64,000 nt of DNA. It comes from Bryobacteraceae bacterium. Lineage in GTDB: Bacteria > Acidobacteriota > Terriglobia > Bryobacterales > Bryobacteraceae. Positions 22,867 to 30,850 of this stretch are shown here, one piece after another. The stretch lies in the NCBI GenBank assembly GCA_025056865.1, contig JANWVO010000038.1, forward strand, positions 62,001-126,000, given 5' to 3'. The notes beneath the pieces were generated by a model. It saw only the letters and a program-made list of their open reading frames with translations, did not search any database and was not told the DNA's origin. Both the position numbers and the translations under genes were made by a program. The first letter of the stretch is position 1. Each line of letters begins with the position of its first letter.

Positions 22867-24342
22867 TCACAGCTTCTGTTTGAGCAGTTCGGCTACGGCG
22901 GCGGGGTTGGCCTGGCCGCGCGTCGCCTTCATCACCTGCCCGACGAAAAACTGCAACACCGTTGTCTTGCCGGCGCGGTACTGCTCCACCTGCTTCGGGT
23001 TGTTCGCGATCACCTCATCGACGATCCGCTCCAGCTCGCCCGTGTCCGACATCGCGCGCAGCCCTTCGCGCTCCATGATCGTCCGCGCGCTCTCCCGCGT
23101 GGCGAACATCTTCGGCAGGATCTCCTTGGCGAGCTTCCCCGTCAGCTCGCCCTTCTGCACCAGCACAATCAGCTCGCCCAGCCTCTCGGGCGGCACGGGA
23201 CAGGTCTCGACCGTGAACCCTTCGGCCTTCAGCAGCCCGGCCAGGTCGCCCGAAACCCAGTTGGCCGCGGCGCGCGGATCCCCGCAGGCCTTCACCACGC
23301 CCTCGAAGTAATCCGCCAGCTCGCGCGAACCCGTCAGCACCTGCGCGTCGTACTCCCGCAGCCCGTACTGCTCGACAAAGCGGCGGCGCATCTCCGCCGG
23401 CATCTCGGGCATCGACCGCCGGATCTCCTCCAGCCACTCGTCGCTGACGACAAGCGGCAGCAGGTCCGGCTCGGGAAAGTAACGGTAGTCGTGCGCCTCC
23501 TCCTTGCTGCGCATGGAGAAGGTCTCGTCAAGGTCCGGGTTGTAGAGCCGCGTCTCCTGCACCACCGTTCCGCCCGCCTCGAGCAGCGCCACCTGCCGCG
23601 AGATCTCGAACTCGATCGCCTGCCGCAGGAAGCGGAACGAGTTCAGGTTCTTGATCTCCACCTTCGTGCCGAACTGCTCCGTTCCCCTGCGGCGCACGCT
23701 CACGTTGGCGTCGCAGCGCAGGTTGCCCTTCTCCATGTCGCAGTTCGACACGCCGGCGAACTGCATCGCCAGCTTGAGCTCGGTCAGATACTCGTACGCC
23801 TCGGCGGCGCTGCGCAGGTCCGGCTCGCTGACGATCTCGGCCAGCGGCGCCCCGGTACGGTTCAGATCCACATACGAATAGCGGTCGCTGTCGCGGTAGC
23901 CCTCGTGCGTGCTCTTGCCGGCGTCGTCTTCCAGATGCAGGCGGCGCACGCCAATGCGCTTCCTGCCCTGCGCCGTGCCGATCTCCACCCAGCCGTGCTC
24001 GGCCAGCGGCTGATCGTACTGCGAAATCTGGTAACCCTTGGGCAGATCCGGATAGAAGTAGTTCTTGCGGGCGAAGACGCTGCGCCGTCGCACTTCGCAG
24101 TGCAGCGCCAGCGCGGCGCGGATGCCCAGCTCGACGGCGGCGCGGTTCAGCACCGGCAACGCGCCCGGCATCCCCAGGCACACCGGACACACGTTCGTGT
24201 TGGGCGCGGCGCCGAACTCGTTCGGGCACGCGCAGAAGATCTTGGTGCGCGTGCCCAGTTGCACGTGCACCTCCAGTCCGATGACCGGCTCGTAGAGCGC
24301 AAGCTGCTCCGGCGTCGCCAGCAAAGGCGCGGCAGTGCTCAT
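22867..24342 (-). CDS. gatB: Aspartyl/glutamyl-tRNA amidotransferase subunit B
   Basis: This is a 491-residue protein. GatB signatures are visible: PVIGLEVHVQLGT, the zinc-site cysteines in IFCACPNEF and NTNVCPVCLGMPG, FYPDLPKGYQISQYD, and a C-terminal YqeY-like tail domain (NPAAVAELLKQKL). With GatA and GatC it converts Glu-tRNA(Gln) or Asp-tRNA(Asn) to the amide form. gatA and gatC are not in this window. A TACAAT hexamer ends seven bases before the ATG and no Shine-Dalgarno is present, which suggests a leaderless transcript. Confidence 0.97.
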   Translation of the reverse strand: MSTAAPLLATPEQLALYEPVIGLEVHVQLGTRTKIFCACPNEFGAAPNTNVCPVCLGMPGALPVLNRAAVELGIRAALALHCEVRRRSVFARKNYFYPDLPKGYQISQYDQPLAEHGWVEIGTAQGRKRIGVRRLHLEDDAGKSTHEGYRDSDRYSYVDLNRTGAPLAEIVSEPDLRSAAEAYEYLTELKLAMQFAGVSNCDMEKGNLRCDANVSVRRRGTEQFGTKVEIKNLNSFRFLRQAIEFEISRQVALLEAGGTVVQETRLYNPDLDETFSMRSKEEAHDYRYFPEPDLLPLVVSDEWLEEIRRSMPEMPAEMRRRFVEQYGLREYDAQVLTGSRELADYFEGVVKACGDPRAAANWVSGDLAGLLKAEGFTVETCPVPPERLGELIVLVQKGELTGKLAKEILPKMFATRESARTIMEREGLRAMSDTGELERIVDEVIANNPKQVEQYRAGKTTVLQFFVGQVMKATRGQANPAAVAELLKQKL

Positions 24343-24428: not shown

Positions 24429-25748
24429 ATGGAGAATCCGGGTCCATCCGATGCCCGCACGCTGTTGATCACAACCGTCGGCGGCTCTCCCGAGGCCATC
24501 GTTGCCGGCATCCTCCATCTGCGTCCAGACCGCATCGTGTTCGTGTGCAGCCCCGAGACGGCGAAACTGGTCGAGGGGCCCGACGACCGCGGCAACCCGG
24601 GCATCCTGGAACGCCTGCGGCGGAACGGGTTCGAAGTGCCCGCCGGAGCCTGGGAAATCGTGCAGATCGTTGATGCCCAGGATCTCGAATCCCTCGTCCG
24701 GCAGGCGCGGCAGCAGATCGAACCCGCGGCCCGCCACTGGGTGCGGGATCCTTCCCGGGACCGCGTCGTCGTCGACTTCACCGGCGGCACCAAATGCATG
24801 TCCGCCGGCCTTGTGCTGGCCAGCCTCGACTGGCCCTGCGAGTGGCAATACGTCGGCGGCACGGAGCGAACCAAAGGGGGCGTTGGCGTCGTCGTCGACG
24901 GCAAGGAGCAGATCGTCAACCCGCGCAACCCCTGGGACACGCTCGCCTGGCGGCACGTGCTGCGCGCCGCCGCCCTGTTCGACGAGGGCGAGACGGGCGG
25001 AGCTGTGGCCGTGCTGGAAGGAGCCCTCCGGCGGACCGGGCCAGGCAGGCTGAACAGAGCGCTCGGCACGCTGTTCCAGTTCTGCCGCATCTACCACGAG
25101 TGGGACGCCTTCCGCCACGCCGACGCGCACATGGCGGCCCGTGACTTCCTGAAAAACGTGGATACCCTTTCCTTCTTCGTGTCCCCGGACCGCGTGGAGC
25201 ATTTCCACCGCCGCGTATCCGCAGACGCCACCCTGCTGGAAAAGCTGAGCCAGGGCGGCGGCCCGCGCCCGCTGCTCGTGGCGGACATCTACAGCAACGG
25301 GCTTCGCCGCATGCGCGAGCGCCGCTTCGACGATGCCGTGGCCCGCTTCTACCGCTGCGTGGAAGCCCTGGCGCAGGTGGCGCTGGCCGCGCACGGAATC
25401 CATTCGACTGCCGCCGTGCCCGTGCAGAGCATCCCGGAAGAGCTGCGGGCGGAGTGGAACCTGCCCGCCGGCTGCGAGACCGTCGAGCTGCCGCTGTCGC
25501 GCAGCTATCAGTTGCTGGCGGCGCTTGGCGATGAGCTCGGCCAGCGTTTCCTCGAGTCCCGGCTCGCGAGCCGGGAGAAAAGCCCCTTGCAGGCCCGCAA
25601 TCATTCCATCCTCGCCCACGGTTTTCATGCGGTCAGCGAGGCTGACGCCGATAGCCTGAAAAAGGAACTCGAAGCCCTCGCAGGCGGCTGGCTCAAGGAT
25701 CAGATCCCGGTCTTCCCCAAACTGAGCGACCTGCTCGGCACGTTCTGA
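24429..25748 (+). CDS. CARF-HEPN protein, CRISPR ancillary ribonuclease-like (TIGR02710 type)
   Basis: This is a 439-residue protein. The N-terminal domain (~1-170) looks like a CARF (Rossmann-like) ligand sensor: LLITTVGGSPEAIV with the glycine turn at 16-20, then VVVDFTGGTKCMSAGL at ~114-128, the conserved second ligand-binding loop. A helical middle region follows. Near the C-terminus RNHSILAHGF gives R390-x6-H397, a HEPN RNase motif. The layout matches the TIGR02710 family related to Csm6/Csx1, RNases activated by cyclic oligoadenylates in type III CRISPR immunity. No cas gene or repeat array lies in the 64 kb. The start may be the ATG at 24429 or a GTG at 24411. Confidence 0.8.
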   Translation: MENPGPSDARTLLITTVGGSPEAIVAGILHLRPDRIVFVCSPETAKLVEGPDDRGNPGILERLRRNGFEVPAGAWEIVQIVDAQDLESLVRQARQQIEPAARHWVRDPSRDRVVVDFTGGTKCMSAGLVLASLDWPCEWQYVGGTERTKGGVGVVVDGKEQIVNPRNPWDTLAWRHVLRAAALFDEGETGGAVAVLEGALRRTGPGRLNRALGTLFQFCRIYHEWDAFRHADAHMAARDFLKNVDTLSFFVSPDRVEHFHRRVSADATLLEKLSQGGGPRPLLVADIYSNGLRRMRERRFDDAVARFYRCVEALAQVALAAHGIHSTAAVPVQSIPEELRAEWNLPAGCETVELPLSRSYQLLAALGDELGQRFLESRLASREKSPLQARNHSILAHGFHAVSEADADSLKKELEALAGGWLKDQIPVFPKLSDLLGTF

Positions 25749-25830: not shown

Positions 25831-27933
<2,103 letters not shown>

Positions 27934-27999
27934 CGTTTGTCCTTGTCTCCTGTGTCGGACTGCTCTGGTCTTTATGCCAGATGACTCATTCGGTGTGGC

Positions 28000-29208: not shown

Positions 29209-30395
29209 CGCTGCTCGTGGCGGCCGCGCTGGCTCTGGCGCAATATGACGACGCCGTCATCGCCCGCGGCTTCGACCACTTCTACAACCTCGAATACCCG
29301 CAGGCCATCGAGTGTTTCCAGAAGGCCATCGCCGCCGCGCCGCGCGACCCCCACCGCCACAACCACCTGGCGCAGGCGGTGCTCTTCCAGATGATGTTCC
29401 GCGCCGGCGCGCTCGAAACCGAGCTGGTCACCGGCGGCAACCCCTTCCTGCGCCGCCCGAAGATGGAGCCCACGCAGGAGGAGCAGCAGTTGTTTGCCGC
29501 CTCCATCAGCCACACCCTCTCGCTCACCTCGGAGGCGCTGGCCAAGAACCCGAACGACACCTCCGCCCTGTATGCGCGCGGCGTGGCGCTCGGCTTCCGC
29601 GGCACCTACAACTTCCTGGTCCGCCGCGCCTGGCTGGACGCGCTGCGCGACATCACCGACGCGCGCCGGCTCCACAACCGCGTCGCCGAGCTCGACCCGA
29701 AAAACATCGACGCGCTCATGTTGCAGGGCGTCCACGACTACATCGTCGGCTCGCTCCCGTGGCACTACCGCACGCTCGGCTTCCTCATCGGCTTCCGCGG
29801 CGACCGCGAGCGCGGCATCCGCACCGTGCGGCTGGTGGCGGAAAAAGGATCGCTCAACCGCGTCGACGCGAAGATCCTTCTCGGCGTCGTCGCGCGCCGC
29901 GAACGCCGCCCGCAGGACGCCGTGCCCATCATTGTCGAGCTGCTCGAGCGCTACCCGCGCAACTTCCTCCTCCTGTTCGAGCTCGCGCAGATGTACTCGG
30001 ACCTCGGCCGCAAGGAAGACGCGCTGCGCACCTTCGACCGCATCGAGGAGCTCAAGCGCTCCGGCGCGCCCGGCTTTGCCAGCCTCCCGTGGGAGCGCAT
30101 CGAGTTCGCCCGCGGCAACCTGCTGTTCTGGTACGACGAGCCCGAAGCGGCCATCGTCCACCTGCGCCGCGCCACCCGCGCCGCTGACCGGCTCGACCCC
30201 AACTCCGCCGTCACGAGCTGGCTCCGCCTCGGCCAATGCCTCGACCTGCTCGGCCGCCGCGAAGAGGCCCTCGCCGCTTACCGGCACGCCGTGGAAACTG
30301 CTCCTTCCTCCTATGAAGCAAAGCTCGCCCGCCGATGGCAGCGGCGCGTCTTCGACCGCGAAGAGAAGCGGCTGCTGGCGCGCGGAGAGCTTTAG
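29205..30395 (+). CDS. TPR-repeat protein, probably secreted
   Basis: This is a 396-residue helical protein. A short hydrophobic N-terminus (MTLLVAAALALAQ) may be a signal peptide. Tetratricopeptide-like repeats are spread over its length (LEYPQAIECFQKAIAAAP at ~27-45; KNPNDTSALYARGVAL; RYPRNFLLLFELAQMYSDLGRKEDALRTFD; LRLGQCLDLLGRREEALAAYRHAVE). Such repeats mediate protein contacts; the partner is unknown. It overlaps the queG stop by ATGA, but no functional link to queuosine is evident. Confidence 0.85.
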   Translation: MTLLVAAALALAQYDDAVIARGFDHFYNLEYPQAIECFQKAIAAAPRDPHRHNHLAQAVLFQMMFRAGALETELVTGGNPFLRRPKMEPTQEEQQLFAASISHTLSLTSEALAKNPNDTSALYARGVALGFRGTYNFLVRRAWLDALRDITDARRLHNRVAELDPKNIDALMLQGVHDYIVGSLPWHYRTLGFLIGFRGDRERGIRTVRLVAEKGSLNRVDAKILLGVVARRERRPQDAVPIIVELLERYPRNFLLLFELAQMYSDLGRKEDALRTFDRIEELKRSGAPGFASLPWERIEFARGNLLFWYDEPEAAIVHLRRATRAADRLDPNSAVTSWLRLGQCLDLLGRREEALAAYRHAVETAPSSYEAKLARRWQRRVFDREEKRLLARGEL

Positions 30396-30493
30396 CCGAC
30401 GGCAACCTTCTGCGGCCGATCCATGCGCCGCGCCGCCCACGCCGCAAATCCCGGATGGATTTCCGCAACGCCTGCTGTATACTTGCTCCCACT

Positions 30494-30850
30494 ATGGGAT
30501 TCGTCCAGGAGTTCAAGGAGTTTGCACTCAAAGGCAACGCAATCGACCTGGCCGTCGGCGTCGTCATCGGCGGCGCCTTCGGAAAAATCGTCAATTCGAT
30601 GGTCGCGGACCTCATCAACCCGCTGCTCGGGCTGCTGACCCGCGGCGTGAACCTGGCCGACAAGTGGGTGGCGCTCGACGGCAATTCCTATGCGTCCATC
30701 GAGGAGGCGAAAAAGGCCGGCGCGGCGGTGCTCACCTACGGCAATTTCCTGAACTCGGTCATCGAGTTCTTCCTCATCGCCCTGGCCATTTTCATCGTCA
30801 TCAAACAGATCAACCGGCTCGTACGGGTCTCCGACACGCTGCCGAAATAG
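30494..30850 (+). CDS. mscL: Large-conductance mechanosensitive channel
   Basis: This is a 118-residue protein. MscL signatures: FKEFALKGNAIDLAVGVVIGGAFGKIVNSMVADLINPLLG (amphipathic N-helix and TM1) and FLNSVIEFFLIALAIFIVIKQINRL (TM2). It opens on membrane tension to release solutes after hypo-osmotic shock. It is slightly short at the C-terminal helix bundle. TATACT lies ten bases before the ATG with no clear Shine-Dalgarno, so the transcript would have an extremely short leader. Confidence 0.96.
   Translation: MGFVQEFKEFALKGNAIDLAVGVVIGGAFGKIVNSMVADLINPLLGLLTRGVNLADKWVALDGNSYASIEEAKKAGAAVLTYGNFLNSVIEFFLIALAIFIVIKQINRLVRVSDTLPK

Follow-up and report, generated by a model that had tools for sequence, protein, structure and literature searches.

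The gene found at positions 24429-25748 of the window, the whole 64,000-nucleotide stretch analysed here (positions 62001-126000 of the 245-kb contig C50 in a Bryobacteraceae genome, G000, of 61 contigs and 4.18 Mb), probably encodes an accessory effector of type III CRISPR immunity, of the Csm6 type, which is encoded away from its CRISPR locus and would act in trans. The protein is a genuine member of the Csm6 family that is off-locus without being an orphan of its genome, and it is probably part of a known defence system. The basis of this reading is the domains, the conserved residues and the fold of the protein, together with the presence of GGDD-bearing Cas10 in the same genome and a statistical link with Csm1. 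The features of the gene and of its two neighbours are given below.

24429..25748, + strand: CARF-6H-HEPN protein of the TIGR02710/Csm6 family, 439 aa (profiles and fold)
24456..24923, + strand: predicted cyclic oligoadenylate sensor, the CARF domain, residues about 10-165 (structure match to CARF ring nucleases)
24477..24488, + strand: CARF motif I, V17-G-G-S20 (aligned to L57-G58-T59-S60 of T. thermophilus Csm6)
24780..24794, + strand: CARF motif II, T118-G-G-T-K122 (K122 aligned to the cA4-binding K137 of T. thermophilus Csm6)
24957..25145, + strand: Csm6 6H domain, residues 177-239 (Pfam PF22205)
25269..25676, + strand: HEPN ribonuclease domain, residues 281-416 (Pfam PF09670)
25596..25619, + strand: HEPN active-site motif R390-N391-x5-H397 (aligned to R415/N416/H422 of T. 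thermophilus Csm6)
22867..24342, - strand: gatB, divergent left neighbour, for context only (Pfam GatB_N, 1.5e-122)
25831..27957, - strand: Tes-like radical SAM gene, convergent right neighbour, for context only (NCBIfam NF045702, 316 bits, below the cut-off of 450)

The open reading frame begins with ATG at position 24429, its stop codon ends at position 25748, and it encodes 439 aa with no inner stop. The frame, its coordinates, the two CARF loops (T16-V-G-G-S20 and D116-FTGGTKCMS125) and the HEPN motif (R390-N-H-S-I-L-A-H397) were the same as in the original prediction, and the proposed CARF-HEPN layout and kinship with Csm6/Csx1 were borne out by profiles as well as by fold. The NCBIfam equivalog TIGR02710 matched residues 28-418 with 188.2 bits (E=2.2e-55; cut-off 83.9), which places the protein in this family. 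The Pfam Csm6 HEPN model (PF09670) was matched with 93.6 bits (E=1.3e-26; cut-off 27) and the 6H domain was recognized by Csm6_6H (PF22205) with 28.8 bits (E=1.4e-6; cut-off 27.6), while PADLOC returned CARF1_HEPN (4.3e-71) and Csx1 (PDLC01360, 2.9e-70). Despite the Csx1 match, the curated NCBIfam family is TIGR02710, and no solved Csx1 ranked above the Csm6 of T. thermophilus in the structural comparisons.

An AlphaFold2 model of the monomer, for which 24 sequences were aligned, reached a mean pLDDT of 91.2 and a pTM of 0.80. The top Foldseek match of this model was the cA4-bound Csm6 of T. thermophilus (6.5e-18), which was also the best solved structure found by sequence alone (3e-9). In the VIA-align comparison, which covered the first 1000 Foldseek chains, this cA4-activated enzyme (PDB 8jh1, 8jbb, 5fsh) aligned end to end with residues 9-434 of the model (Z 21.2; rmsd 5.0 over 384 residues), and residues about 8-169 matched the CARF domains of the ring nucleases Can2, Card1, Cam1 and Crn1 (Z 11.9-15.3; rmsd 1.8-3.5 A). 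It is because of this structural match that the N-terminus is assigned to CARF, as had been proposed, although no Pfam CARF model scored above its cut-off (Card1 CARF, E=0.21); in the model, the N-terminal region is a predicted CARF domain with ligand motifs I and II. The Csm6 proteins of Streptococcus thermophilus and Enterococcus italicus (PDB 8pe3, 6tug), which bind cA6-type ligands, share the CARF and HEPN domains and the overall fold (Z 17.9-18.6), but they are only 10-13% identical to the window protein in the structure alignments, whereas the cA4-bound T. thermophilus enzyme is nearer, at 23%. Since kinship is closer to the cA4 enzyme, cA4 is the likely messenger.

The alignment with T. 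thermophilus Csm6 paired G18-G19-S20 of the window protein with G58-T59-S60, S41 with T81, E43 with E83, T118/G120/K122 with T133/G135/K137, Y141 with Y161, and R390/N391/H397 with R415/N416/H422. In this way, the window protein has equivalents of S60, E83, T133, G135, K137 and Y161 and the same R-N-x5-H active site, whereas T59 and T81 are replaced by G and S, respectively, and the mobile loop differs. In a study of the T. thermophilus enzyme (PMC10897365), the K137A substitution abolished both cA4 binding and RNase activity, Y161A markedly reduced cA4 cleavage with binding retained, and R415A, N416A and H422A abolished RNase activity. Residues V17, G18, T118-K122, Y141, R390, N391, S393 and H397 were invariant in all 24 sequences of an alignment (the window protein together with 23 chosen by hand from the best 80 of 276 relative loci) and in a nine-sequence family set that includes the window protein (9/9), and G19 was nearly invariant in the 24-sequence alignment. 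The conservation of R390 and H397 extended to the 98 sequences used for the tree, all of which presented R-N-x5-H within their last 130 residues, in agreement with the R-x4-6-H pattern of HEPN domains; the motif II pattern T-(G/S/R)-G-T-K was found in 91 and was absent from 7. RNase activity is predicted on these grounds. Cleavage of the messenger by the CARF domain is more doubtful, since T59 is replaced by G19 and the mobile loop aligns poorly.

No cas gene and no CRISPR array was found from 44 kb to the left to 58 kb to the right of the gene, i.e., in the window and in 20 kb beyond each of its ends, by two repeat searches and a panel of 14 cas queries (proteins from contigs C12, C41 and C44 of the same genome; E below 1e-6 on the set of open reading frames). 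The absence noted earlier for the window was therefore upheld and extended, and the gene, although it encodes a Csm6 protein, does not belong to a type III locus. At the level of the genome, however, the idea of an orphan without a CRISPR locus did not hold, nor did the ranking of the gene as the strongest candidate for an undescribed system, because a complete III-A locus was found on contig C12. This locus comprised cas6, csm1-5, cas1, cas2 and two further Csm6 HEPN proteins, with scores and cut-offs, in bits, of 536/170 for Csm1, 55.5/30.6 for Csm2, 209.6/90 for Csm3, 80/55 for Csm4, 50/38.3 for Csm5, 188/71.7 for Cas1 and 28.2/24.5 for Cas2, Cas6 being identified by Pfam. Its Csm1 carries an HD motif and GGDD. 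Both Csm6 proteins of the locus were above the cut-off of the Csm6 HEPN family, like the window protein, and against TIGR02710 one was above the cut-off and the other just below it; nonetheless, they belong to a distant clade, are 28-29% identical to the window protein and are not its recent paralogues. An origin of the window gene as a local duplicate of these genes was ruled out by the tree.

Near the end of contig C44, a partial III-B operon was found, which included Cmr2 (243 bits; cut-off 79.4) with GGDD, Cmr3 above its Pfam cut-off and two RAMP proteins. Judged from these motifs, the genome has Cas10 proteins (Csm1 and Cmr2) with an apparently intact cyclase site. CRISPR arrays were searched for beside the C12, C41 and C44 loci and none was found; nevertheless, the repeat of the III-A array of the congener G144, with up to 3 mismatches, occurred in 6 copies close to the end of contig C28 in G000, in 287 copies in the single-contig congener G099 and in 104 in G144 itself, with 0 copies in G044 and G126 and 0 copies of a control pattern in all five genomes of the genus.

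Among 200 genomes of the family, a match to the window protein was found in 14 at 1e-10, and TIGR02710 in 17 at 1e-5. TIGR02710 and Csm1 above its cut-off occurred together in 14 genomes, TIGR02710 only in 3, Csm1 only in 5 and neither in 178, so that Csm1 accompanied TIGR02710 in 14/17 genomes versus 5/183 without it (Fisher p=6e-15). The corresponding counts by genus were 10/2/5/59 (Csm1 in 10/12 versus 5/64; p=1.8e-7), descent being handled only by this collapse to genera. Csm1 above cut-off here includes fragments and short forms, 6 of the 19 being partial or short (G048, G001, G113, G139, G063 and G065), and of the 19 loci inspected 17 showed GGDD, the other two being fragments. The TIGR02710 genomes without such a Csm1 have adjacent cas genes, namely cas6/cas1/cas2 in G044, csm3/csm4 in G057, and cas1/cas2 with an array in G027; in the last, the relative is present with no Csm1 or Cmr2 above cut-off. 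In six genomes of the family, selected after inspection of the data, a copy lay away from cas genes (G000, G099, G010, G115, G063 and G051), and all six had Csm1 above cut-off. Cmr2 was above cut-off in 7 of the 18 genomes searched and in 3 of these six (G000, G099 and G010). These results altogether point to III-A as the preferred partner, with III-B as a serious contender, and they agree with one of the options raised earlier, that the gene serves a type III locus at a distance. The gene is dispensable, since it is missing from G126, which has III-B, and from G144, which has both III-A and III-B.

The mechanism proposed for an effector acting in trans would start when a Csm or Cmr complex encoded in another part of the genome, guided by its crRNA, binds phage or plasmid RNA. 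The Cas10 palm of this complex would make cyclic oligoadenylate, and the messenger, most likely cA4, would diffuse to the pocket of the CARF dimer that the window protein, if expressed, is expected to form. Upon binding, the HEPN dimer would cut RNA non-specifically, and the cell would be slowed or the infection killed; the CARF domain may later cleave the messenger, switching itself off. Some observations run against this reading: no operon or shared regulation joins the window gene to the III-A locus, this locus already owns two Csm6 proteins of a distant clade, and the nearest relative outside the genus, in G063, is itself not CRISPR-linked, although it lies near a contig end.

A tentative alternative is that the protein chiefly serves, as effector, the III-B operon of contig C44, and perhaps also a module with a short Cas10 on contig C41. 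The window protein would then supply inter-locus signalling, because both loci have a cyclase and no known effector beside them. In agreement with this, the Cmr2 of G000 carries GGDD; the counterpart operon in G099, Cmr1-Cmr6 by PADLOC (L151:5889-13891; L018/L019/L039 in G000), is flanked by four genes that match no defence family, with no array, cas1 or cas2 in the 20-kb stretch; and the four genes flanking the C41 module match no defence family either. Moreover, a survey (PMC11229360) counts 133 type III loci with a cyclase and without an effector, some of which were proposed to activate effectors elsewhere in the genome. However, Cmr2 was above cut-off in only half of the six off-locus genomes, whereas Csm1 was so in all of them, G126 and G144 have III-B and lack the window gene, and the III-B genes of G000 lie near a contig end.

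It is rather improbable that the protein is a shared RNase output in a genome-wide second-messenger network of three Cas10 cyclases, those of III-A, of the III-B operon without an effector and of the short-Cas10 core module, the messenger of any of them being sufficient for activation. If so, the trigger coming through the short-Cas10 module, which is core to the family, may not be phage at all. As a partner of the window gene, this module was uninformative: it cannot explain the TIGR02710 pattern, because it is present in 182/200 genomes and TIGR02710 in 17/200.

The preferred reading, of a type III effector acting in trans, was also supported by the relatives of the protein. A search of 84,980 species, each represented by one genome, led to 276 confirmed loci, of which the best 80 were analysed: in the DNA examined, 68 had a match to the cas panel (weak in L179, L239 and L213), 2 had only a weak array (L220 and L230, 3 copies each) and 10 had neither (L171, L174, L195, L207, L221, L224, L226, L227, L229 and L234), most of the latter being cut by contig ends. 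In this respect the window gene, with no cas gene near it, differs from its family. In a quick tree of 98 sequences, from which the partial or duplicate rows L230_1336, L048_19091, L041_18995 and L224_702 had been dropped and one L224 stretch removed by a length filter, the window protein and its G099 orthologue grouped with support 100 and nested in a clade of 30 (SH-aLRT 99), 25 of which are CRISPR-linked, while the III-A Csm6 pair of the same genome fell in another clade. The relatives in G081, G029 and G027 (41, 40 and 36% identity) adjoin cas1, with cas2 or cas6, and repeat arrays; the G027 copy adjoins cas1, cas2 and a 78-copy array. Outside the genus, the relative closest by tree path was that of G063 (39%), with no cas gene in 12 kb, at about 0.9 kb from a contig end.

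A second off-locus lineage was found in G010 and G115, with no cas gene within 20 and 12 kb, respectively, and Csm1 above cut-off elsewhere in both genomes; the G051 copy, on a 4-kb contig, groups there. The two copies (L050:8320-9576 in G010 and L049:3337-4572 in G115) represent a distant CARF-HEPN lineage with matching neighbours, which by eye are PIG-L-like and rhomboid-like. The notion that the gene had relocated many times was abandoned: the tree needs at least 9 changes between linked and off-locus states for 13 off-locus rows (mean for shuffled rows, 12.4), but several of these rows lie at contig ends, so that only two off-locus lineages are argued here, that of G000/G099 and that of G010/G115 with G051.

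The place of the gene was partly shared within the genus. In G099, the orthologue (71% identity) is likewise flanked by gatB and the radical SAM gene, but of the five genomes of the genus only two have the gene. In G144, G126 and G044, the 1.5 kb upstream of gatB contained no match to CARF-HEPN or radical SAM, which rules out the same gene place in all congeners; by a reading of the DNA by eye, the gene upstream of gatB in these three genomes is a histidine kinase. As for the radical SAM neighbour (25831-27957, - strand), its product is related to the tetraether lipid synthase Tes and is 97% identical in G099.

Another report (PMC12669027) describes CARF homologues as abundant outside CRISPR-Cas systems. 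The original prediction had considered a non-CRISPR cyclic-nucleotide system as an option. That the window protein is a non-CRISPR cyclic-nucleotide RNase of stress or immunity, recruited to a housekeeping role, is very unlikely. Its stable place in two species, with gatB on one side and the radical SAM gene on the other, and the second lineage away from cas genes in G010 and G115, speak for such a role. However, this option was rejected as the main reading because the neighbours scanned have no cyclase and the relatives are mostly CRISPR-linked. Among ten neighbour genes scanned between 18.2 and 33.0 kb, a set chosen from the open reading frames of this segment that did not include others such as 30335-30850, no cyclase or defence partner of the kind expected for CBASS or another non-CRISPR cyclic-nucleotide system was found, and the genes were of housekeeping type or unnamed: Pfam gave NlpC/P60, FAD_binding_2, DHQ synthase, a UbiE-type methyltransferase, DUF2103, GatB, radical SAM, QueG and TPR, one gene being unmatched. 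The PADLOC matches to these neighbours were only at superfamily level, to a methyltransferase model (mad2, 2e-19 for the UbiE gene and 8.9e-7) and one at 6.5e-4, and the pVip viperin match of the radical SAM neighbour (1.3e-11) was far exceeded by its Tes match (3.6e-94). The tracking of Csm1 and the presence of the gene in only two of five congeners also count against a housekeeping role. In addition, between G000 and G099 the dS of the window gene was 1.24, at the pace of the III-A genes (csm1 1.23, csm6a 1.13 and csm3 1.07), whereas five of its neighbours ranged over 0.35-0.69 (Nei-Gojobori estimates with no codon-bias correction; the gatB range was taken without its first codon and with the stop masked). 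The high dS shared with the III-A genes is compatible with membership of the CRISPR pool or with weak codon bias.

It is equally improbable that the gene is decaying as the last trace of a type III locus formerly at the same place, which would suit an isolated gene, patchy in its genus, with related copies that adjoin cas1 and arrays in G081, G029 and G027, but not an intact frame with all catalytic residues kept, the same place in two species and a dN/dS of 0.20, the purifying selection that marks the gene as functional.

With the protein read as an effector acting in trans, the gene clearly exemplifies a type III effector encoded apart from CRISPR loci, and two species keep it in the same position. 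Its genome also has type III modules that are cyclase-positive but have no known effector next to them. The idea of inter-locus signalling by cyclic oligoadenylate is not new, since it appears in PMC11229360, and the window gene fits it from the effector side; with one protein and three Cas10 complexes, the idea becomes directly testable. The case also suggests that part of the output side can escape surveys of type III effectors that are based on loci.

The short-Cas10 module of contig C41 (L016:13586-19806, - strand) was a side finding. It comprises a Cas10 of 465 aa with no HD-domain match, Csm2-5, of which Csm2 has a long N-terminus rich in Pro/Ala, and an AAA ATPase, which we take to be ExeA-like, and it was also located in G099 (L150:4565-10746), G126 (L163:2883-9030) and G027 (L159:8862-14950). 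The short Cas10 open reading frames of other genomes were mostly of 470-520 aa. The presence of the module in 182/200 family genomes was scored at 1e-30; among 396 genomes across the phylum, searched at 1e-20, there were 3 matches, all three from the family. GGD(D/E) and RGDxD were present in 16/16 short Cas10 rows aligned, and by plain pattern the best 30 loci had GGDDF in 14, GGDEF in 10 and neither in 6, with RGDxD in 27. In eight loci of other genera, the core of Csm2 was 83-86% and Csm3 71-74% identical to the G000 proteins; across the best 30 loci, taken with short flanks, 26 had Csm2 (lowest identity 59%) and 25 had Csm3 (lowest 72%). Within the genus, the dS of the module was at the level of core genes, 0.50-0.65. 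No CRISPR array or cas1 was found beside the module in G000; the array finder also fires on tandem repeats, such as a 5 x 45-nt repeat in L016, and its flags there and in L150 and L163 were not counted as CRISPR. The module looks like a vertically inherited, slow-evolving core type III complex. It would be unusual for a CRISPR effector complex to be conserved as housekeeping complexes are, and this side finding may be the more novel one: in a non-exhaustive search, no title or abstract beginning among the matches listed described a short-Cas10 core module in Bryobacteraceae or Acidobacteriota.

Finally, several CRISPR loci of the family (L041, L045, L046, L048, L051, L053 and, in the genome of the window, L005) carry another cas2-like gene in addition to the cas1-cas2 pair and separate from it, and in a number of these loci this gene is adjoined by a weak cas1 match.
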